Of a stretch of DNA of 41,156 nucleotides, positions 8,857 to 40,989 are shown piece by piece. Every line of letters starts with the position of its first letter. Position 1 is the stretch's first letter. The translations under genes and the position numbers were made by a program. Source of the stretch: Bacteroidaceae bacterium (GTDB taxonomy: Bacteria; Bacteroidota; Bacteroidia; Bacteroidales; Bacteroidaceae); NCBI GenBank assembly GCA_017471185.1, contig JAFUVZ010000004.1, positions 1-41,156 of the forward strand, written 5' to 3'. Under the pieces are notes generated by a model. That model was not told the origin of the DNA, did not search any database, and saw nothing but the letters and a program-made list of their open reading frames with translations.

Positions 8857-9675
8857 TTACATACTGTGAAGATGCTTCATGGCTTCTGCCAGTTTCTTCA
8901 TCGCAAAACGGGGAGCGATGCGGCTCAGTAAATCCATCTGCTTGCAATCCTTGCCGATGATGATTTTCCATTTACCAGCTTCCATACCGCTTACAATGGT
9001 CTCTGCTGCTGCACTCGGAACAGTGACATTGGCATGCTTTAAGTCTTTTTCTTTATAATTTGACACACTCTTGGCTCCTTTGACACCAGAATGTACCTGG
9101 ATGTCTGTTGCCACGGCGCCAGGGAAAACTTCGCTTACCTCAATGTTTGTGTCCATCAACTCAGTCATCAAACCTTCCGTCAGGGCACGTACAGCTGCTT
9201 TAGACGCTCCGTAGAAAGTCTGTCCTGGCACAGGAGCGAAAGCCCCCATACTTGAAACATTCACAATATGGGCCTGTGGGCGAGTCATCAGATGAGGCAA
9301 GAATGATTTCACCATATAGAGTGTTCCGTAGAAATTGATGTTCATCACCCGTTCTATTGTACGATACTCCATTTTGCTTACGGGTACGAAGTCCTGGATG
9401 ATGCCTGCGTTATTGATGATTCCGTCAACAGCACCAAACAGTTTAACACAGTCTTCAGCAGCTTGCTCTACGGCTTCTCGGTTGGTGATGTCAAGTTGCA
9501 TCAGCTTCATGTTTGCTCCATTATCACTTGCCAGTTGTTGAGTCTGTTTCAATCCTTCCAAGTTAATGTCAAGTCCGATCACTTTAGCCCCTTTGTTTAA
9601 AAGATTGAGGGCGATAGCCCTTCCCATACCATTACCTGCTCCGGTAACTACGATTACTTTTCCTGCTACTTTCAT
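8857..9675 (-). CDS. Short-chain dehydrogenase/reductase
   Basis: The 272-residue classical SDR shows the NAD(P)-binding TGAGNGMG at residues 11-18, NNAG near 90, the catalytic Ser in VSSMG near 140 and YGASK near 155. Asp at the end of strand two (GLDIN) suggests NAD(H) preference. The substrate cannot be inferred. It is divergent from an AraC regulator 163 bases away, each with its own -7 box, the usual arrangement of a regulator controlling its neighbour. Confidence 0.9.
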   Translation of the reverse strand: MKVAGKVIVVTGAGNGMGRAIALNLLNKGAKVIGLDINLEGLKQTQQLASDNGANMKLMQLDITNREAVEQAAEDCVKLFGAVDGIINNAGIIQDFVPVSKMEYRTIERVMNINFYGTLYMVKSFLPHLMTRPQAHIVNVSSMGAFAPVPGQTFYGASKAAVRALTEGLMTELMDTNIEVSEVFPGAVATDIQVHSGVKGAKSVSNYKEKDLKHANVTVPSAAAETIVSGMEAGKWKIIIGKDCKQMDLLSRIAPRFAMKKLAEAMKHLHSM

Positions 9676-9718
9676 ATCTTTTTCTTTTTATTATTATTCG
9701 TTGTTTTTATTCACTTTG

Positions 9719-9726
9719 CAAAGGTA
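9719..9726 (-). promoter_or_regulatory. -7 box for the SDR gene
   Basis: TACCTTTG on the minus strand, 44 bases upstream of the SDR start, matches the Bacteroidetes consensus TAnnTTTG. Confidence 0.6.
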
Positions 9727-9803
9727 AGGCGGTTTTTGTCAAGAATCTTGCTTGATTAGGTCTGATTTTTGTTCTAAAGGTTGAATAATGCAAAAATATT
9801 GAT

Positions 9804-9811
9804 TATATTTG
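9804..9811 (+). promoter_or_regulatory. -7 box for the AraC regulator
   Basis: TATATTTG on the plus strand, followed by an AAGGAG ribosome site at 9825-9830, eight bases before the ATG. Such a good Shine-Dalgarno is uncommon in this window. Confidence 0.65.
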
Positions 9812-9838
9812 CAGATAATATATTAAGGAGTAATTAAG

Positions 9839-10714
9839 ATGGCAGGACAGGATCTATATGAGATTTTACGGCAAAGCTTTACGCAGATGCGAAAGGATGC
9901 CATACAGGAGGATTTCGTGCTGAGTGATGACGACATCCACTTTGTGCCTTTTTTCCGTTCGCCCTTCAAATTGCCTGCCACTATCATCACCATCATGCCG
10001 AAAGGACGGATTGAGGGAATGTATGACTTGAAGCCCATAGAGGTGGAGGGTCCCTGCATGGTGTTTATGTTTCCTGACCAGATAGTAGAGCATCATACAA
10101 TACGGGATGATACGGAAACCAAGTTGATCATTATGTCTAACCGGTTTGCGGAAACGATGAAGATGTCGCAATCATACTCCGCATTTTTCCGTTTTCAGCA
10201 GAATCCTGTTTTGAAACTGACAGGAGAGGAGTTGCAGATGGTGACTCATTTCTATCAACTTTTGCAGGATGTGGTGAGGATGGATCATAACGGGGAAAGG
10301 AGCGAGGTGATTAAATATCTGTTTCTGGCGTTGTTTTATGCTATCACCAATTTTAGGGATTTCAATCTTCAAGAGCTTGGTAAGAAGAGTCGGGGAGAGG
10401 AGGTATTTGAGAAATTCTATCGTGAGCTATTGCAGCATCATAGAGAGTCAAGAGAGGTGCAGTATTATGCTGATAAACTTTGTATGGCACCCAAATATAT
10501 GGCGAGGATTATCAAGGAGGTGAGTGGGAAAAGTGCTACCCAATGGATTAACGAATATGTGATATTGGAAGCCAAGACTCTTTTAAAGACAAGGCCTGAT
10601 ATAACACTTGAAGATGTCAGTGACGAACTGGGATTCCCAAATCAGTCGTTTTTCGGCAAGTTCTTTAAACAGCATACTGGGTTTACTCCGAAGGAGTTCA
10701 GGTGTAGGGCGTAG
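9839..10714 (+). CDS. AraC-family transcriptional regulator
   Basis: The 291-residue protein has a cupin-like sensor region in its first 170 residues and two helix-turn-helix units at the end. The segment from VQYYADKLCMAPKYMARIIKEV to LGFPNQSFFGKFFKQHTGFTPKEFR is the classic AraC signature. It probably controls the divergent SDR gene. The last codons (CRA) and the TAG stop fall within a YGTAGGG heptamer array, so the C-terminal end is repeat-derived. Confidence 0.93.
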   Translation: MAGQDLYEILRQSFTQMRKDAIQEDFVLSDDDIHFVPFFRSPFKLPATIITIMPKGRIEGMYDLKPIEVEGPCMVFMFPDQIVEHHTIRDDTETKLIIMSNRFAETMKMSQSYSAFFRFQQNPVLKLTGEELQMVTHFYQLLQDVVRMDHNGERSEVIKYLFLALFYAITNFRDFNLQELGKKSRGEEVFEKFYRELLQHHRESREVQYYADKLCMAPKYMARIIKEVSGKSATQWINEYVILEAKTLLKTRPDITLEDVSDELGFPNQSFFGKFFKQHTGFTPKEFRCRA

Positions 10715-10723
10715 GGTGTAGGG
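10703..10723 (+). repeat. YGTAGGG heptamer array over a stop codon
   Basis: Three consecutive heptamers (TGTAGGG, CGTAGGG, TGTAGGG). The araC-type gene stops at the TAG of the second unit (10712-10714). Confidence 0.85.
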
Positions 10724-10759
10724 ATTGGATTTATGAATGAATATTAAATAAACGGTAAT

Positions 10760-11368
10760 ATGATGAAGAAGATAAATTATGCGTTTGTTCGTGCGATATG
10801 TGCATTATTAGCCGGACTGGTGCTTGTTCTGTTTCCCAATGAGGCGGGCAATTACCTGGTAATAACGGTGGGGGCGTTATTCCTGATACCATCTTTGTTT
10901 ACACTGATAGGCTATTATGTACAACGAAAGGACTATCCGGCTTATTTTCCGATTGACTCGGTGGGTGGCATCCTGTTCGGACTGTTGCTGATGGTGGTAC
11001 CTGGTTTCTTTGCCAACTTCCTGACATTCGTACTGGGTTTCTTCCTGTTGCTGGGAGGCATACAGCAGATTTCTATGCTGATTGCAGCCAGACATTGGTC
11101 GGAGGTGCCATTTTCCTATTTCATTGTACCTTCGTTGGTCTTGTTGGCTGGCATCTATGCTGTGATGAATTCCAATGGTGCTCGTAACACTGCTTTTATT
11201 ATCATTGGCGTGACATTCATATTCTACGCATTGTTCGAATTGGTTAACTGGTTCAAGTTTACCCGTCGTCGGCCTAAGCTGGAGGAATTGCAGGATGTCA
11301 AATCATTCGACAAAGATGATGTGGATATTGAGGACGCACAAATAGTAGAAGATAATGGAACTGAATGA
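10760..11368 (+). CDS. DUF308 (HdeD-like) membrane protein
   Basis: The 202-residue product has six hydrophobic segments in its first 165 residues and a charged, acidic cytoplasmic tail (KLEELQDVKSFDKDDVDIEDAQ). The paired-helix repeat is that of the DUF308/HdeD family, whose E. coli member is linked to acid resistance; function here is not known. Its stop overlaps the helicase start by 14 bases, implying translational coupling. Confidence 0.85.
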   Translation: MMKKINYAFVRAICALLAGLVLVLFPNEAGNYLVITVGALFLIPSLFTLIGYYVQRKDYPAYFPIDSVGGILFGLLLMVVPGFFANFLTFVLGFFLLLGGIQQISMLIAARHWSEVPFSYFIVPSLVLLAGIYAVMNSNGARNTAFIIIGVTFIFYALFELVNWFKFTRRRPKLEELQDVKSFDKDDVDIEDAQIVEDNGTE

Positions 11369-32982: not shown

Positions 32983-34683
32983 TTATTCTGTATAATTCAG
33001 CTTCTTGGTTTCCATGTCACGAGAGAAGTGGCGGAAGAAGTCCCAAATCAGGCGAGCTGCAGGCTTGAAGTTCCAATGGCCATAGTTATTGATAGCGATA
33101 AGACGGATCATCGGCTTATTGTCTTTATACAGCTGACCAAACTCCATCGTGATGTCTTCGCTCTTGCCCGTATGAATCTGACGGCGGTCTTGCAACTTGA
33201 ATCCGAAGGTTGGATCCACATTGAAATCCAAATCACCTGTCACCTCCATATCATTAATCGTCTGATAGATGCGCCAAACATTCAAATAAGGGTTTCCTTG
33301 CCAGTTGTCAGGACGCAAGTAACGTATCACATCATCATGGGTACCAGCCACAGAGCAATAGCCCACTTCCACATAGCCACGCTTCTGAATGGCCTCATTC
33401 ATCAAAGGCTCACTGCCATAGCCATAATAACCAAGTCCGTTGCCAGAGAAGATGCCACCAGAATGGCCAGCTACGGCAGCAAAGAGATGCGATTTACGCA
33501 CGCCCAGCATATTGCTGGTCATGGCCCCAGCAGACAAACCCTCACAATAGATACGTGAAGCATCAATCTGCGGATATTTCTCTTTGAGTACACTGATAAC
33601 AGCCTCAATGCCATCCAATCCCATAGCGATGAAACCATTGCTGCCCTGCCACTCCATCTCTACTACCATGAAGCCCTCTTCAGCTGCCAGTTCCACAAAT
33701 CCAGCCGTCTCACTTTGTGTGCGAGGATCGTTCCCATGACCATGCAGGATCACGACTAATGGCACAGTACCCTTAGCTGCATTTTGAACCTGCTTTGGCA
33801 GATACTCATACCACAGATATTTATTAGGGTTCTCTACCCCACCTGCCGCATTGGTATCCACTACAGGATGTTGTACTACATTGCGCTGGATGCCCATTTT
33901 ATCGAACATCGGGTATGAAACAAGTTCGAAAGTCTTCACACCTTCCGGGTTATCAATACCACGGCTCATATAGAACGTGCGATAGAGGTTGTTGTAACGA
34001 TAGTTGGCACTCAACACCTTATCCCAAGCATCAGCCAACAACATAGCTTCAGAAGCGTTAGCATCAGCATTCACTACCACTTGCTGCAAAGGATCCTTAG
34101 GAGCGGCATCACTGGTTTTCTGATAAGGTTTGGCCACTTTTGCTGCATTCTTGCCACCGACATAAGTGGGGACAGGCAGTGCGCAGACCTTACCAGGAGC
34201 ACCACCAATAGAAACGATGCCAGCTATGGCACCCGTCAAGTCAGAAGCAGCCAAATGCTGATTGACGAAAGTAGCACCATTGCCAATGCCCACCACCTTA
34301 ATGTTAGTGGCAGGGCCACCTCTAACTATCAGTTCACGGAAAGCCTGTACGTCAGAAGCCTGCCACTTGTCGCCTACAGGATTCACCACACTAATTCTGC
34401 CACCGTTTTCAGCAGCCATTTCTATTACCTTCAGTTCCTTTGCCAACGCTAAAGCAGATACATTATCCAGCTTCTGATCAGGGAAGATATAAAAAGCAGG
34501 GCCAAATCCGGCGCGTGACTCTATATTCCTCTCCATAGGCAGATTATACTGCAAGGCGGAAGTACCCTCTATTGCAGAAAACTCATTCAGCGGGCCTTGG
34601 GGCCTCATCATGGGTTGCGCACAGGCTCCCATCCATAAGAGAGCCAGCGTTGCTACCATCATATATCGTTTTATTTCTTTCAT
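32983..34683 (-). CDS. Secreted PHB-depolymerase/feruloyl-esterase-like hydrolase
   Basis: The 566-residue product begins with a lipoprotein-like or secretory leader (WMGACAQ near residue 20). An N-terminal alpha/beta domain of about 270 residues is followed by a catalytic esterase domain: LHGHGNDPRTQ near 318, the nucleophile in GLSAGAM near 384, and a late His in GHWNF. The GxSxGxM form is typical of poly(3-hydroxybutyrate) depolymerases and CE1-type esterases. The first domain also shows GIGNGAT, possibly a degenerate hydrolase copy. It is first in the unit with the smaller esterase. Confidence 0.82.
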   Translation of the reverse strand: MKEIKRYMMVATLALLWMGACAQPMMRPQGPLNEFSAIEGTSALQYNLPMERNIESRAGFGPAFYIFPDQKLDNVSALALAKELKVIEMAAENGGRISVVNPVGDKWQASDVQAFRELIVRGGPATNIKVVGIGNGATFVNQHLAASDLTGAIAGIVSIGGAPGKVCALPVPTYVGGKNAAKVAKPYQKTSDAAPKDPLQQVVVNADANASEAMLLADAWDKVLSANYRYNNLYRTFYMSRGIDNPEGVKTFELVSYPMFDKMGIQRNVVQHPVVDTNAAGGVENPNKYLWYEYLPKQVQNAAKGTVPLVVILHGHGNDPRTQSETAGFVELAAEEGFMVVEMEWQGSNGFIAMGLDGIEAVISVLKEKYPQIDASRIYCEGLSAGAMTSNMLGVRKSHLFAAVAGHSGGIFSGNGLGYYGYGSEPLMNEAIQKRGYVEVGYCSVAGTHDDVIRYLRPDNWQGNPYLNVWRIYQTINDMEVTGDLDFNVDPTFGFKLQDRRQIHTGKSEDITMEFGQLYKDNKPMIRLIAINNYGHWNFKPAARLIWDFFRHFSRDMETKKLNYTE

Positions 34684-34736
34684 CGTTTTATTATTTAATG
34701 CAATGTCTGCAACCGAAACCGATTGCTGACAAAAAA

Positions 34737-35675
34737 CTAACCGTTATAATTTACCTGACTGTTTGCCTGAATGATTTCACCCACTCTCACATTAGGATTA
34801 CGATACCTTGATTTACGGTTTGGCTCCTCTGGCTCTGGTGGTGTAGGTATGATGGAAATAGCTTTAGTAGGGCAGTTGTGTACACATGCCAGGCAGTTCT
34901 CACAATCTCCTTCTGCCACACTCTTTCCGTTAACAATTTTCCAAGAACCATGAGGACACACAGAGTTACAGATGCCACAACCAATACAATCGTCTGTTGA
35001 AAAGACAATCTTCTCAGACCTTGTAAAAGTGGGTTTTACCCTGTCACGTCCAGAAAATCTGTAATAGCCTTCACAAAACATTTTCTCTTGTTCAGAGACA
35101 GGACGGATGTAGTTTTCACGACTATTGACAGAAGCCTTTATTGCTGCCAAATTTTCAGGAATCTGCTTGTCTTCAGCTTTTTGTAATTCCATGTCATAGT
35201 ATGGCAGGTACGTATCCACCATCTTGATGGTATTGATGTAATTCATCTCAAGCCCTTTGTCCTTTGCCATTTGGGCAACATATTCAGGGAATATGGTAGA
35301 GTTGGCTCCGTATGTGCCGACACAGAAAAGATAGTCAGCCTTGAAGGTGGAACGGGCAAAAAACTCCTGCACGATGGTAGGTGGGATAAAGCAGTAGATA
35401 GGACAAACGATACCTATTTCCTCGGCTTCATAAACAGGATGCTCATTGTGAATTTCCTGCGGAATACTCATAAGGGTACCTTCCGCACCACTCAGCTCTT
35501 TAGCGATATACAGACTGTTACCTGTGGCAGAGAAGAAGAAAATCAAGCGTTTATATTTCTCTTGAGGTTCTTCTGCCTTTACCTTAGTACCTGTGCAAGA
35601 TGACAATACCGTACCTGCACACATAGCACCCAACATTCTAAGGGCGTTCCTTCTTGAAATTTTGTGTTTCTCCAT
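34737..35675 (-). CDS. Exported EFR1-type flavodoxin-ferredoxin fusion
   Basis: The 312-residue protein joins a flavodoxin-like domain (FFFSATGNSLYIAKEL near residue 47) to a two-cluster 4Fe-4S ferredoxin domain. Both Cys sets are complete, CIGCGICNSVCP near 232 and CENCLACVHNCP near 260. The family name EFR1 refers to this fusion. Its leader carries a twin-arginine pair (SRRNAL) and a lipobox-like SSC near residue 27, which is unusual for the family because most members are cytoplasmic. This implies a folded, cofactor-loaded electron carrier outside the membrane. The partner is unknown. Confidence 0.87.
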   Translation of the reverse strand: MEKHKISRRNALRMLGAMCAGTVLSSCTGTKVKAEEPQEKYKRLIFFFSATGNSLYIAKELSGAEGTLMSIPQEIHNEHPVYEAEEIGIVCPIYCFIPPTIVQEFFARSTFKADYLFCVGTYGANSTIFPEYVAQMAKDKGLEMNYINTIKMVDTYLPYYDMELQKAEDKQIPENLAAIKASVNSRENYIRPVSEQEKMFCEGYYRFSGRDRVKPTFTRSEKIVFSTDDCIGCGICNSVCPHGSWKIVNGKSVAEGDCENCLACVHNCPTKAISIIPTPPEPEEPNRKSRYRNPNVRVGEIIQANSQVNYNG

Positions 35676-35885
35676 TTTTCCTTAATTATGACAATTATTT
35701 TTTGCAAAAGTAGGAATTAAACTTCACAAAAACATTACCTTTGTAACGGATTAAACTACCTGAAACTCCCTCATTATAACAAGAAACAGTCTATTTAAGG
35801 TTTTTTAATCCTAATAGCATACTTATTCTGTAATACATTAATATGTTATGGAGATACTTAATAGCATTTGCTATGCAATAAAACT
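35676..35885. other. 210-bp intergenic region left of the defence-like island
   Basis: A minus-strand TACTTTTG box (35705-35712) serves the EFR1 gene. A plus-strand TACCTTTG (35736-35743) has no gene after it and may be chance. The rest is AT-rich and holds no open frame that I support. Confidence 0.5.
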
Positions 35886-36230
35886 TTATAATGTCGCAGA
35901 AATCTTTCTAATTTCCTTCAATCGTTTTAAGAACGACTTGTCACGCTTTGCAGAAAGCAGATTGTACTTCATTTGTAATGAAAGCAAGGGAGCCGCATCA
36001 ATACCCAAGGCCTTCTCAATGAGCAATGCCATTTCTGCACTTAGAGCACGCTTACCATTCAGCATTTCGTTCAGTTGGCTGGCAGGAACTCCAATTTCTT
36101 TAGCCAGACAACGTTGACTGATGCCTCGAAAATCCAACTCGTCCTTAATCACTTCACCAGGATGAGTCAGGTAAAACGGCTCCAGATTGTTGGCCACCAT
36201 CCTTTCGTCTATTTCTTCTTTATGTACCAT
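35886..36230 (-). CDS. higA: HigA-type antitoxin
   Basis: The 114-residue protein has the HigA signature THPGEVIKDEL near residue 22 and an XRE helix-turn-helix (ISQRCLAKEIGVPASQLNEMLNGKR) at residues 37-61. HigA binds and neutralises the HigB toxin and represses the operon. It is second in the unit, seven bases after the toxin stop, the inverted order typical of higBA. Confidence 0.93.
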   Translation of the reverse strand: MVHKEEIDERMVANNLEPFYLTHPGEVIKDELDFRGISQRCLAKEIGVPASQLNEMLNGKRALSAEMALLIEKALGIDAAPLLSLQMKYNLLSAKRDKSFLKRLKEIRKISATL

Positions 36231-36237
36231 AATGTCT

Positions 36238-36555
36238 TTACTTATAATGATTCGACAACTCTGTAATACTCACGACCTCAGCAATTGGCTTTTCGTCTTG
36301 AATAATCTTACGAAACTCAATCCTGTGTTGATCGTTAATTCTAACAGAAGATAAGCCCTCTTTGTCACCATGCAGTTTTTCGTAGTGCAATCCGCCATAT
36401 TTAGTAAGTCCCATTACATTTTCTTGTTCAATCATCAGGTCAATAACACGAGTGTATTTCCTGACTATTTGAGGTTGGAAGCGATGTTTCTTATCATTGG
36501 CTTCGCCCTTTACATAGAACTCCTTGAGGTATTCTTGTTCAAATAATACTATCAT
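36238..36555 (-). CDS. higB: HigB-type RelE-fold toxin
   Basis: The 105-residue protein matches the RelE/HigB fold: VRKYTRVIDLMIEQENVMG, the KYGGLHYEKLHGDKEG loop, and the core strands LSSVRINDQHRIEFRK. HigB cleaves mRNA on the translating ribosome. The toxin precedes the antitoxin. The start ATG is 14 bases downstream of the promoter -7 box, so the leader is very short. Confidence 0.93.
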   Translation of the reverse strand: MIVLFEQEYLKEFYVKGEANDKKHRFQPQIVRKYTRVIDLMIEQENVMGLTKYGGLHYEKLHGDKEGLSSVRINDQHRIEFRKIIQDEKPIAEVVSITELSNHYK

Positions 36556-36569
36556 TTCATTTTATGGAG

Positions 36570-36601
36570 CAAAGGTAAAACAATAATTGTGTATTCACAA
36601 A
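36570..36601 (-). promoter_or_regulatory. Promoter of higBA
   Basis: Read on the minus strand: TTTG at 36601-36598, a 20-base spacer and TACCTTTG at 36577-36570. This is a complete consensus promoter. Confidence 0.72.
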
Positions 36602-36609
36602 TTTGTGAA
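36594..36609. promoter_or_regulatory. Candidate HigA operator
   Basis: TTCACAAATTTGTGAA is a perfect 16-base palindrome that covers the -33 element of the higBA promoter. HigA-family antitoxins repress by binding such sites, so autoregulation is the likely role. Confidence 0.65.
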
Positions 36610-36821
36610 CGTTTTTTTTCTTTCATTTCAACTATATAATTTGGATCAGCAACGCATCTCCGTTGCAAATGACCAGCTTTAAGAAAAAGTATGGACTTTG
36701 TTTCTCTTATGTATTTGCCATTAATTGCTCTAATAATTAGCATTTTTTGTACGTTACTGACCGAATGCTCAATTAAATTGAGTAACTTTGTGTCCATAAT
36801 TGGAAACTGGGAGCAAGCAAA
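36610..36821. other. 212-bp region between higBA and the MmeI-like gene
   Basis: There is no supported gene. It contains GCAACG/CGTTGC with a six-base loop (36647-36664) and a CTAATAATTAG palindrome (36730-36740) followed by a T tract at 36743-36748. The MmeI-like promoter lies at its right end. Confidence 0.5.
36768..36790 (+). promoter_or_regulatory. -7 box with adjoining palindrome, MmeI-like gene
   Basis: TAACTTTG (36783-36790) is directly preceded by the 15-base palindrome CTCAATTAAATTGAG (36768-36782). No -33 TTTG lies at the usual distance. The palindrome may bind a regulator of the restriction-modification gene. Confidence 0.5.
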
Positions 36822-39749
36822 ATGAAGACAGAGAAACAAATGGCTATGGCTGCTGCTGAATTTGCAGAGCGATGGAAAGGCAGAGGATATGAGAGGGGCG
36901 AGTCGCAACCCTTTTGGATTGACTTTCTCTCAAATGTCTTTGGCATTGAAACGCCATCGGATGGCTTTATCACTTTTGAAGACCATCGAATGGTGGATGC
37001 CTCCAACTTTATAGATGGTCGTATTCGTTCCACTAAAGTTCTGATAGAGCAGAAATCTTTGGGTAAGGATTTGAGAAAAGGTATCCTTCAAAGCGATGGT
37101 TCAATGCTTAATCCATTTCAGCAAGCCCGTCGTTATGTGGTCAGTCTGCCGGTGTCAGAGCATCCACGTTGGATTGTCACTTGCAACTTTTCTGAGTTTT
37201 TGGTCTATGATATGGAACAGCCCAATGGTGAGCCTGAACAGATATTGCTTGAAAACTTAGGGAAAGAGTATTATCGTCTAATGTTTCTTGTTGACAACAA
37301 GAAAGAACATTTGTCAAAGGAAATGCAAGTGTCTATGCAGGCAGGCGTAATTGTTGGTAAGATTTATGAGGCTTTGCTGAAACAATATGATGACAACTCG
37401 CCCGAAGCATTGCGTTGGTTGAATATCCTTTGTGTCCGTATCGTGTTCTGTCTTTATGCCGAGGATGCAGGTGTGTTTACACACGACCAGTTTCACGATT
37501 ACCTTGTGCGCTATGAAGCTGAGGATTTGCGGAGGGCTTTGCGTGACCTCTTCGATGTGCTAAACACACCAATGGAGAAACGTAGTAAGTATCTGAAAGA
37601 CGATTTGAAATCCTTTCCATATACCAACGGAGGATTATTTGATGAACAGATAGAGATTCCACAATTTACAGAGGAGTTAAAACAGACTTTACTACAGAAC
37701 GCCAGCCTTGACTTCGACTGGAGCGAAATATCACCGACCATCTTTGGCGCTGTTTTTGAGAGTACATTAAATCCTGAGACCCGTCGCAGTGGCGGTATGC
37801 ACTATACCAGTATAGCTAATATCCATAAGGTCATTGATCCACTTTTTTTAAATGACTTGCGTCGTGAACTGGACGAGATACTGGAAGAGAAGATTGAACG
37901 ACAACGGCAAAAGAGACTCAATGAATACCAAACCCGTTTGGCCTCTCTTACTTTCTTAGACCCAGCTTGCGGCTCTGGAAACTTCCTTACAGAGACTTAC
38001 CTTTCACTCCGTCGTCTGGAGAACGAGTGCATCCGAGAACGTTATCATGGTCAGGCTTTCCTCGGCTTTGAGGAAGTGAATCCTATCAAGGTGAGCATTC
38101 AGCAGTTCTACGGCATAGAGATTAATGACTTTGCAGTAACCGTCGCAACGACCGCCCTTTGGATTTCAGAAGCGCAGATGCTTCGTGAGACCGAGAAGAT
38201 TATCAGACGCGATTTAGATTTTTTACCGTTGAAGTCGTATCATAATATCCGTGAAGGCAATGCTTTACGGATGGATTGGGACATTATAGAAATTCCTTCG
38301 GACATTCCTACTATTCATGCCAATAATGTACACTTGATTGTTGAGCCAGAACCGTTGATAGCCAGTGAGCCTGTCGTAGAATATGACGAAGTTAATGTCG
38401 TGGCCAAACATTTTGATGGGGAGACTAAACCAAACAAACAACGTTATCAAGTTCACTATGACTATATAATAGGTAATCCACCGTTCGTAGGAGCCCGGCA
38501 AATGGATGAATACCAAAAGCAAGATGTGATTTGTATATTTGGTGTTAGATGGAAGAACGTTGGAAATCTTGATTATGTATGCTGTTGGTATAGAAGAGCT
38601 TGGCAGTTGGTGAAGCTTACTGATGCCAAAGCTGCATTCGTATCAACAAATAGTATATGTCAAGGTGAGCAAGTAGCAAACCTATGGCAGCCATTGATGG
38701 AAGATGGACTCCATATAGATTTTGCCTATCGTACTTTCCGTTGGGATAGCGAGGCTTCTCTTAAGGCTCATGTGCATTGTGTTATTGTAGGTTTCAGTCA
38801 CAAAGGTGAAGAACCAAAAGAACTCTTGCTTTTCGATAACGACAAGGTGACAAAGGCCAGTCATATCAATGCCTATCTTATGGATGCACATGATGTGTTT
38901 ATTGGTGGTAGGCAAACACCGATTTGTGACGTACCACGGATAGGGATTGGCAATTTACCTATTGATGGAGGTAATTATCTATTTACGAAAGAACAAAAGG
39001 AGGACTTTATAAAAATTGAGCCTAAGACTGCTCAATTATTCAGACCTTGGTATGGCTCAGAAGAGTTTATCCATCGGAGACCTCGCTATTGTTTGTGGCT
39101 TGGAAATTGTTCACCTACTGAATTGCGACAGATGCCACATTGCTTAAAACGGATTGAAGCTGTACGTGAAATGAGATTAGCAAGTAATCGTGCAGGAACG
39201 CGTAAATTGGCAGACTGTCCAACTCGTTTTAGTACTGAGAATATGCCAGAAACAAGTTTTATTATTGTCCCGAAAGTATCCTCAGAAAGACGCCGATATG
39301 TGCCAATGGGCTTTATGTCTCCAGATGTTTTGGCTAGTGATCTTGTTTTTATTATCCCTAATGCAACACTATACCATTTTGGCATACTAGAAAGCAATGT
39401 GCATATGGCATGGATGCGTGCTGTGTGTGGTCGTCTGAAGAGCGATTACCGCTATTCTAAAGATGTTGTCTATAACAACTTTCCATGGCCAGAGCCCACG
39501 GAAGATCAGAAGTCGAAGATAGAGCAGACGGCTCAGGCCATTCTTGATGCGCGTGCCAGCTATCCAGACTCCTCGCTGGCTGACCTTTATGATGAACTGA
39601 CAATGCCTGTTGAGCTTCGCAAAGCCCATCAAAATAACGACCGTGCCGTAATGCAAGCCTATGGTTTCCCTGTAAATTCCACATTTACGGAAAGTCAGTG
39701 TGTGGCAGAGTTGTTTAAGTTGTATAGAGAAATGCTGAAACTAACATAA
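36822..39749 (+). CDS. MmeI-like single-chain type IIL restriction-modification enzyme
   Basis: The 975-residue protein has the MmeI layout: an N-terminal nuclease domain, helical spacer, N6-adenine methyltransferase, target-recognition region and C-terminal helical domain. The nuclease motif is visible as Asp65, then EQK at about 76-78 (D-x10-ExK). The methyltransferase has motif I DPACGSGNF near 379 and motif IV NPPF near 552. MmeI itself is about 919 residues; this one is slightly longer. Such enzymes cut about 20 bases from the site and protect the host by modifying one strand. Cofactor and nuclease residues look intact, so an active enzyme is expected. The recognition sequence cannot be read here. 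Codon use is AT-richer than the housekeeping genes. Confidence 0.9.
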   Translation: MKTEKQMAMAAAEFAERWKGRGYERGESQPFWIDFLSNVFGIETPSDGFITFEDHRMVDASNFIDGRIRSTKVLIEQKSLGKDLRKGILQSDGSMLNPFQQARRYVVSLPVSEHPRWIVTCNFSEFLVYDMEQPNGEPEQILLENLGKEYYRLMFLVDNKKEHLSKEMQVSMQAGVIVGKIYEALLKQYDDNSPEALRWLNILCVRIVFCLYAEDAGVFTHDQFHDYLVRYEAEDLRRALRDLFDVLNTPMEKRSKYLKDDLKSFPYTNGGLFDEQIEIPQFTEELKQTLLQNASLDFDWSEISPTIFGAVFESTLNPETRRSGGMHYTSIANIHKVIDPLFLNDLRRELDEILEEKIERQRQKRLNEYQTRLASLTFLDPACGSGNFLTETYLSLRRLENECIRERYHGQAFLGFEEVNPIKVSIQQFYGIEINDFAVTVATTALWISEAQMLRETEKIIRRDLDFLPLKSYHNIREGNALRMDWDIIEIPSDIPTIHANNVHLIVEPEPLIASEPVVEYDEVNVVAKHFDGETKPNKQRYQVHYDYIIGNPPFVGARQMDEYQKQDVICIFGVRWKNVGNLDYVCCWYRRAWQLVKLTDAKAAFVSTNSICQGEQVANLWQPLMEDGLHIDFAYRTFRWDSEASLKAHVHCVIVGFSHKGEEPKELLLFDNDKVTKASHINAYLMDAHDVFIGGRQTPICDVPRIGIGNLPIDGGNYLFTKEQKEDFIKIEPKTAQLFRPWYGSEEFIHRRPRYCLWLGNCSPTELRQMPHCLKRIEAVREMRLASNRAGTRKLADCPTRFSTENMPETSFIIVPKVSSERRRYVPMGFMSPDVLASDLVFIIPNATLYHFGILESNVHMAWMRAVCGRLKSDYRYSKDVVYNNFPWPEPTEDQKSKIEQTAQAILDARASYPDSSLADLYDELTMPVELRKAHQNNDRAVMQAYGFPVNSTFTESQCVAELFKLYREMLKLT

Positions 39750-39750
39750 T

Positions 39751-40989
39751 ATGGAAAATTGTAATGAATTTCAAGCGAAACTTTCTTTTATAGATGAAGA
39801 GAACATCGAGTTCAAAACTGTCGATAGTCTTGAAGATTTAAAGATTGTTGTTGCTACATGTAGAAATAGTAATGAAAAGAAACTATCCAAATACAATTTT
39901 TCGAATTTGGAAGAAATAAGTTGTATATGTTTTGATGGTGTGACCTTGGAAGATGTTGTGTTTAGCCGATTTTGCCCCTGTCGCAATAAACGACCTCTTT
40001 TGTTCCAACTATCATTTAAGGGTGCAATACTAAATCGGGTATCTTTTGCACATGCAGACCTTCAACAATGCAATTTTGATTCTGCCAGGATTGACTATGT
40101 GGATTTCTTCTTTAGCAGAATCAAATATAGCCGTTTTAGACAGTCGGTAGCTCATTATGTGGATTTCCGTTATTCGCAAATAAACAATTGTACATTGGGA
40201 GAAATGGACGTAACCATGGGGGATTTCTATTTCTGTAATTTCCTTGGCAGTACTAATTTTATAAAAAGCAAGTTTACTAATTGTAGTTTTACCAATGCTA
40301 TATTTGAACATGCATGTATCCGAATGGACAACATTGAAGGTGGTATAATTCAAGAACACAGTGCTGCTTATCATGGCGATTTTCTTTACAAAGAAGAATT
40401 GCATTGGAACAGATATAATCCGTGCTTTTCATTTAGTTCTATGAATCCTCATTCCAGAGATAGTATAATTAAAAGCGATGCGTTTATTGCTTCAGAATCA
40501 ATGAATTTTTACAAACAGATGAGCGGTATTTATGCTGGCAAGGGACTGAATCGTGATTCTAATCAAGCATACAAAAAGAAGGTTTTAGAGGAGCGTAAGT
40601 ACTGCAAAAAGAAACTTATTGTACTAAAACAAGAGGGGTACAGCAATTGTGATGGTGAAAGTATATGGCACTATCGTTCCAAATACTATAAGACTTTTCT
40701 TACCCAGGCAATGGGATACGGGTATAAATGGTGGACTCCATGTGTGTGGTTCTTTGCTCTTGTTATTGTATTTTGGATTATTTTCCAACTTGTTGATGGC
40801 ATTGCATGTATTGATACACCTGATTGGTTACAGCATCTTGGCTATAGCTTTAATAATGCTTTAAGCCCATTTGAAGACTATTATAGAGTTGTCAATATCT
40901 TTATATCTTCCTTACAATCTACTTTAGGAATATTGTTAGTGGGATTTTTAGGATTTGTGATTGCTAATAAAATTCGTAATGATTCATAG
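39751..40989 (+). CDS. Pentapeptide-repeat protein with two C-terminal membrane helices
   Basis: The 412-residue protein starts one base after the MmeI-like stop, so it is co-translated. Residues about 45-195 form degenerate pentapeptide repeats with a Phe/Leu every five positions (FKGAILNRVSFAHADLQQCNF, DYVDFFFSRIKYSRF, NFIKSKFTNCSFTNAIF). A charged helical linker with KKKVLEERKYCKKKL near 275-290 follows. Then come two hydrophobic helices, WWTPCVWFFALVIVFWIIF near 322 and STLGILLVGFLGFVIANKI near 390, with a pore-loop-sized stretch (YSFNNALSPF) between. This resembles pentapeptide-repeat proteins fused to a two-helix channel domain, but no GYG-type filter is present. Function is unknown; a membrane effector is inferred. 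Confidence 0.8.
   Translation: MENCNEFQAKLSFIDEENIEFKTVDSLEDLKIVVATCRNSNEKKLSKYNFSNLEEISCICFDGVTLEDVVFSRFCPCRNKRPLLFQLSFKGAILNRVSFAHADLQQCNFDSARIDYVDFFFSRIKYSRFRQSVAHYVDFRYSQINNCTLGEMDVTMGDFYFCNFLGSTNFIKSKFTNCSFTNAIFEHACIRMDNIEGGIIQEHSAAYHGDFLYKEELHWNRYNPCFSFSSMNPHSRDSIIKSDAFIASESMNFYKQMSGIYAGKGLNRDSNQAYKKKVLEERKYCKKKLIVLKQEGYSNCDGESIWHYRSKYYKTFLTQAMGYGYKWWTPCVWFFALVIVFWIIFQLVDGIACIDTPDWLQHLGYSFNNALSPFEDYYRVVNIFISSLQSTLGILLVGFLGFVIANKIRNDS

Follow-up and report, generated by a model that had tools for sequence, protein, structure and literature searches.

The window analysed here is the whole of contig C39 (JAFUVZ010000004.1) of a Bacteroidaceae bacterium, a stretch of 41,156 nucleotides from an assembly rated ~80% complete. 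Close to its right-hand end lie two genes on the same strand and separated by a single base: one for a 975-residue MmeI-type restriction-modification enzyme, and one for a 412-residue protein with pentapeptide repeats and membrane helices. An intact-looking single-chain restriction-modification gene followed one base on by a pentapeptide gene is what had been described from the letters of the sequence, and the open reading frames (ORFs), Pfam and PADLOC all confirm that arrangement. The original prediction went on to see in these two genes a candidate new defence pair. Based on profile, structural and neighbourhood comparisons, we favour with moderate confidence a different account, namely that the 412-residue product belongs to the two-helix K+-channel kind of membrane proteins, has a non-canonical loop in place of the filter and a cytosolic pentapeptide beta-helix, and works without the MmeI-like enzyme.

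The 412-residue protein belongs to the pentapeptide-repeat proteins, since it exceeds the Pfam cut-offs for both Pentapeptide (PF00805, 44.1 bits for a cut-off of 20.2) and Pentapeptide_3 (PF13576, 38 bits for a cut-off of 27), and since the top rows of its structural matches are pentapeptide proteins; its Pentapeptide_4 match (30.6 bits) is below the cut-off of 38. In the AlphaFold2 model (mean predicted local distance difference test score, pLDDT, 75.4; predicted template modelling score 0.68) the repeats, which had been described as degenerate, form a beta-helix, with short strands in a repeating pattern over residues 44-176 and a pLDDT of 85-98 in this block. The membrane part of the model comprises one helix over residues 328-348, a short one over 359-369 and further helices up to residue 411, while hydropathy peaks in two 19-residue windows starting at residues 330 and 387. 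The two membrane helices that had been called terminal are therefore present, but not one at each end: both lie within the last 90 residues, with the short helix between them. Between the two membrane helices, all 12 aligned members of the family have one to four acidic residues, which would suit a cation path. Table 1 gives the coordinates of these parts and of the neighbouring features.

Table 1. Features at the right-hand end of the window, with the pentapeptide gene and its parts first
Feature	Position	Strand	Basis or remark
Pentapeptide-repeat, two-helix membrane protein, 412 residues	39751..40989	+	ORF list, Pfam, hydropathy, structure model
Pentapeptide beta-helix, residues ~44-180	39880..40290	+	AlphaFold2 model, Pfam
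Helical linker, residues ~236-320, with conserved G-x3-D-x-N-x2-Y at 265-274	40456..40710	+	Alignment, model
First membrane helix, residues 328-348	40732..40794	+	Hydropathy, model
Segment resembling a pore helix, with the filter position, residues ~359-387; no K+ filter motif; low pLDDT	40825..40911	+	hhalign, model
Second membrane helix, with conserved end G-x4-G-x2-G-F-x3-N-x2-R-N, the first G nearly invariant	40912..40986	+	Alignment, model
MmeI-type restriction-modification enzyme, 975 residues, seemingly intact; neighbour, probably not a functional partner	36822..39749	+	ORF, Pfam, PADLOC
Left part of the block, with a HigB-like gene and a helix-turn-helix (HTH) gene on the minus strand	35868..36821		Homology of four genus relatives stops by ~35868
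End of a repeated element, taken as an insertion sequence, truncated where the contig stops	41016..41156	+	Begins ~26 bases after the pentapeptide stop

Sequence comparisons suggest that the C-terminal half of the protein is kin to two-helix K+-channel (Ion_trans_2) proteins and has lost their filter motif. A profile of the C-terminal part that omits the repeat (A3), searched in 393 genomes of the order with E-values reckoned per genome, gave weak matches to three proteins, L085 (4.2e-5), L087 (3.4e-4) and L086 (9.4e-4); a fourth, L077, was found with the repeat profile (A2), independently of the C-terminal profile. The Pfam cut-off for Ion_trans_2 is passed by L085, L087 and L077. When the window family was aligned by hhalign to these three Ion_trans_2 proteins jointly, the probability was 92.5 (E 4.9e-7), both membrane helices were matched and the filter segment of L085 fell opposite the ALSPFED of the window protein. 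Singly, L087 scored 88.8, L085 78.0 and L077 19.1, compared with 0.1-0.6 for six single membrane proteins taken as controls, so that L077, although not found with the family's own profile, still aligns above them; a two-protein control set scored 0.2 with the window family and 0.4 with the reference set. L077 exemplifies known combinations of pentapeptide repeat and Ion_trans_2, in which the repeat likewise comes first and the two-helix pore domain last, whereas L085 and L087 have the Ion_trans_2 match yet no Pfam pentapeptide match. All three carry filter-like motifs (SYGSGD in L077, TIGFGD in L085, TVGYGD in L087), and the window family has none: the K+ filter motif is of the T-x-G-Y/F-G type, and a regular-expression search did not find it in the window protein or in ten homologues. 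The earlier reading of an atypical membrane protein whose pore-loop-like stretch lacks a potassium filter thus finds partial support, and the profiles link it to two-helix K+-channel proteins; its pairing with MmeI as an effector is not supported.

The predicted fold offers a second comparison. In the Hailong anti-phage system, HalA (PDB 9nyi; NCBIfam NF051894) is the effector channel, and HalB, a nucleotidyltransferase, is the partner expected next door to it. In a fold search with the 412-residue protein HalA ranked 33rd of the 50 matches listed, and was the sole one of them to align beyond model residue 333; the predicted layout resembles that of HalA, with a repeat-type N-terminal part, a helical middle part and an aligned C-terminal end. 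By sequence, HalA was rejected. The window protein has no match to NF051894 at an E-value of 1, and the best score among ten homologues shown singly is 33.8 bits for a curated cut-off of 250, these matches falling within the repeat alone (positions 43-139 of the HalA model); among 100 relatives 48 match and none exceeds the cut-off. Similarly, in a PDB search profile A2 reaches 9nyi in the repeat part (E 0.015) and profile A3 does not reach it at an E-value of 10.

Several points weigh against these likenesses. No Pfam Ion_trans_2 (PF07885) match is found in the window protein or in any homologue scanned. The A3 match of L087 is by itself not significant, given the 393 genomes searched, and its single hhalign alignment is limited to the linker and the first helix. 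Because L085 and L087 came from the family's own profile, the joint E-value is over-optimistic. The A3 match of L086 is probably false, as this protein does not pass the Ion_trans_2 cut-off and scores 0.3 in hhalign, and it was dropped as a channel relative. In the AlphaFold2 model, pLDDT is 37-57 for the pore segment and second helix and 63-72 for the first helix. A structure search with the C-terminal part alone returned mostly helical bundles and no channel among the matches listed, which is not evidence of absence. Finally, the match to 9nyi has a root-mean-square deviation of 7.1, and the repeat fold makes up a large part of that match.

If the channel-like reading is right, the protein would probably be tetrameric, with the beta-helix and linker forming a crown that might bind a cytosolic ligand or protein and so open or shut a cation pore of low selectivity, in the manner of HalA. 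It would act independently of the MmeI-like enzyme, its gene being a passenger in a variable slot behind MmeI. Since the family is solitary and scattered, we favour a general role in the membrane or in stress over a defence system of two genes, an autonomous defence role being the main rival. Pentapeptide-repeat proteins form a large group, most of whose members have no known function; here a small family joins the repeat to a channel-like domain whose filter is gone, which turns the matter into testable questions, namely whether the repeat gates the pore and which ligand is involved. The likeness to HalA also provides a lead in the search for defence channels, although the protein's association with MmeI is probably fortuitous. 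A bolder form, to which we give little credence, is a second, HalB-independent class of HalA-like guards in which the pentapeptide crown and a DNA or nucleotide ligand would keep the filterless pore shut until phage attack frees it; beside MmeI, such a protein would serve as a fail-safe once restriction has been overcome.

The family is best read as a rare and patchy Bacteroidales family of single genes for pentapeptide-capped, filterless channel-like proteins. Matches to the 412-residue protein occur in 7/301 genomes of the taxonomic family, and in five of these (the own genome, G242, G085, G200 and G227) they span both the repeat and the membrane part; the other two (G269, G245) match part of the repeat only and were excluded from the homologue count. 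A scan of genome contigs yielded 12 homologous loci, all in Bacteroidales, four of them being the family genomes with a spanning homologue, and the C-terminal profile added to the own genome three strong members (G918, G969, G792) among the 393 genomes of the order, which makes 15 homologous loci besides the window. The order of parts recurs in homologues. In seven homologue pairs, none of which includes the window gene, the nonsynonymous rate (dN) is far below the synonymous rate (dS), with 0.057 vs 0.445 in the closest pair and saturated dS in several, so that the homologues appear to be constrained genes. Carriage by phages or plasmids was considered and rejected: the viral, plasmid and phage collections yielded no confirmed relative, as none of 59 pattern matches in viral contigs held up and plasmids and phages gave none. 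Profile A2 matches 139/395 genomes across the phylum; the matches listed outside the own genome all end at or before profile position 168 of 344, and because they are confined to or near the repeat they were not used for the neighbourhood counts. Five loci (L056, L057, L061, L068, L073) encode pentapeptide-matching proteins whose C-terminal parts look TIR-like by eye and which are possible defence proteins. A long pentapeptide protein with a two-helix end from another family of the phylum (L070, 139-1689) scores 37.5 in hhalign with the window family; it has no Ion_trans_2 match, and by eye the filter seems absent. Among the titles and abstract beginnings listed in literature searches, none concerned an MmeI-pentapeptide pair or filterless pentapeptide channels.

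The dedicated pair was not borne out at other loci, where ORFs are mechanical calls rather than gene predictions. No MmeI match lies in the flanks examined at the 15 homologous loci (0/12 and 0/3), and no pentapeptide gene lies at 29 other MmeI loci (L010-L038, flank ~1.5 kb). Of 18 nearly full-length MmeI rows besides our own, 17 were re-examined with a longer flank, G017:C25 being left out for want of a locus, and again none had a pentapeptide gene (0/17, with less than 1 kb downstream of the MmeI gene at L094, L101 and L105); the 12 loci L027-L038 were covered by the short flank only. At the genome level, an MmeI match occurs in 51/301 family genomes, and among the five with a spanning pentapeptide homologue only in the own genome; the absence from the other four is weak evidence alone because the background is 17%. 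Two points count the other way: some of the flanks at homologous loci are short (at most 10 kb, and down to 429 bases on one side of L047), and the one-base gap suggests a transcript common to both genes. The central idea of the original prediction, an effector dedicated to the MmeI-like enzyme that fires when restriction fails, has this same-strand, one-base spacing in its favour; it conflicts with the counts just given and with the difference in third-codon-position G+C content (GC3) between the two genes, and we regard it as very improbable. The two-gene defence pair was accordingly rejected, the neighbourhood not being recurrent within the flanks examined. Since its relatives sit away from MmeI, the 412-residue protein probably stands alone, rather than forming one half of a new defence pair.

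The same observations bear on the proposal of a DNA mimic, inhibitor or scaffold, in which the beta-helix would imitate DNA and bind the MmeI-like enzyme or gyrase, the helices serving as a mere anchor. Qnr and MfpA bind gyrase as DNA mimics, and both are among the pentapeptide proteins that are the best structural matches of the repeat. These matches, however, reflect the repeat fold, and the scores against the Qnr and MfpA models are far below their cut-offs; a mere anchor would need neither the conserved segment between the helices nor the kinship with channel proteins, and the lack of an MmeI enzyme in the flanks of the homologues counts against an inhibitor or scaffold of the enzyme. We consider this proposal the least probable of those weighed here.

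The genes that do adjoin the homologues are varied. By eye, those at L042 seem to encode RuvB, dihydrodipicolinate reductase and methionyl-tRNA synthetase, and those at L046, L048 and L049 HydF or HydG; Pfam names an ATP-binding cassette transporter (L043), an M13 peptidase and a Schlafen AlbA_2 protein (L040), a major facilitator superfamily transporter (L039) and a macrodomain protein (L041). Homologues scattered beside unrelated housekeeping genes had been named in advance as the finding that would speak against the pair, and this is what was seen, many of the names being by eye. At L041 (Paraprevotella) the macrodomain gene occupies 9381-9956 and the homologue, at 9953-11317, starts at or just after its end, a possible case of tight coupling. 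With PADLOC (E 1e-15), the 73 ORFs within 3 kb of the homologues match seven families with one member each (best mad3, 1.1e-56, and BrxH, 8e-26), and the 71 ORFs more than 4 kb away also match seven (best PDC-S43, 1e-41), counts taken without the window itself and without genes at a distance of 3-4 kb; these numbers do not point to enrichment near the homologues. The expectation that they would neighbour MmeI or other defence genes above chance is not supported.

As for the neighbour itself, the 975-residue enzyme has all five MmeI Pfam domains above cut-off, matches the PADLOC type IIG model REase_MTase_IIG along its length (1162.8 bits), carries the motifs DPACGSGNF and NPPF and, close to its N-terminus, a D...EQK stretch, and has family relatives of up to 85% identity. 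It is thus an ordinary-looking MmeI (type IIL/IIG), whose counterparts lack a pentapeptide follower in the flanks examined. At 5/17 MmeI loci another gene follows on the same strand at 6-12 bases, encoding by Pfam a DUF3841 protein, an AAA_21 protein (itself followed by DUF3841), a WYL protein, a GmrSD_N protein or a histidine phosphatase; a terminal 120-residue ORF of L101 was treated as a mechanical call. The AAA, WYL and GmrSD_N proteins match PADLOC models and the two DUF3841 proteins do not. Four of these loci (L093, L095, L100, L103) illustrate the variety, with DUF3841, AAA_21 with DUF3841, WYL and GmrSD_N. It is plausible that a variable slot lies 3' of MmeI, at times holding defence-like genes, and that the window gene is one more passenger. 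Three such PADLOC matches, together with the apparent resemblance to HalA over the whole length of the predicted fold, are also what an autonomous HalA-like guard could draw on, that is, a stand-alone anti-phage effector, gathered with defence genes behind MmeI, which would kill or stall the cell upon the loss or appearance of a cytosolic ligand. No HalB-like gene, however, was seen to the left of the pentapeptide gene in the window, the right side being cut by the contig end, or at the 15 homologous loci in a crude motif scan of their ORFs; the PADLOC matches are no commoner near the homologues than farther away, and the family has no confirmed relative in the viral, plasmid and phage collections. 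We judge such a guard unlikely, and prefer the channel-like protein of more general role.

The guard would also fit the composition of the block, in which the pentapeptide gene lies together with the MmeI gene and a HigB-like pair and which is missing at its site in four genus relatives. A match to positions 33000-36800 exists in 43/119 genomes of the genus, and four of these carry a long run of the left-hand genes; homology to them ends between ~35543 and 35868, and the next gene past this stop encodes an AraC-type regulator in L139 by Pfam and seems to do so in L140 and L141 by eye, in place of the block, with L142 giving no clear picture. In our own assembly the best match of the L139 regulator has 30% identity. 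On the right, the block runs up to the contig end. GC3 averages 0.52 (standard deviation 0.055, 29 genes) and drops to 0.40 in the MmeI gene and 0.30 in the pentapeptide gene. From this drop, the stop of homology in the relatives and the end of an insertion sequence at the right, we conclude that the block was probably acquired; its member genes need not share an origin. The probable insertion sequence lies 3' of the pentapeptide gene and not between the two genes. It has three further matches elsewhere in the genome, of 100, 99 and 91% identity, with copies on C45 and C31, and one copy adjoins an ORF that is transposase-like by eye. To the left of the MmeI gene, the HigB-like toxin gene and the HTH gene (35886-36555, minus strand, toxin first) lie inside the block, and a piece of this stretch occurs in other members of the genus away from these flanks, for instance in G1128 at 79%.
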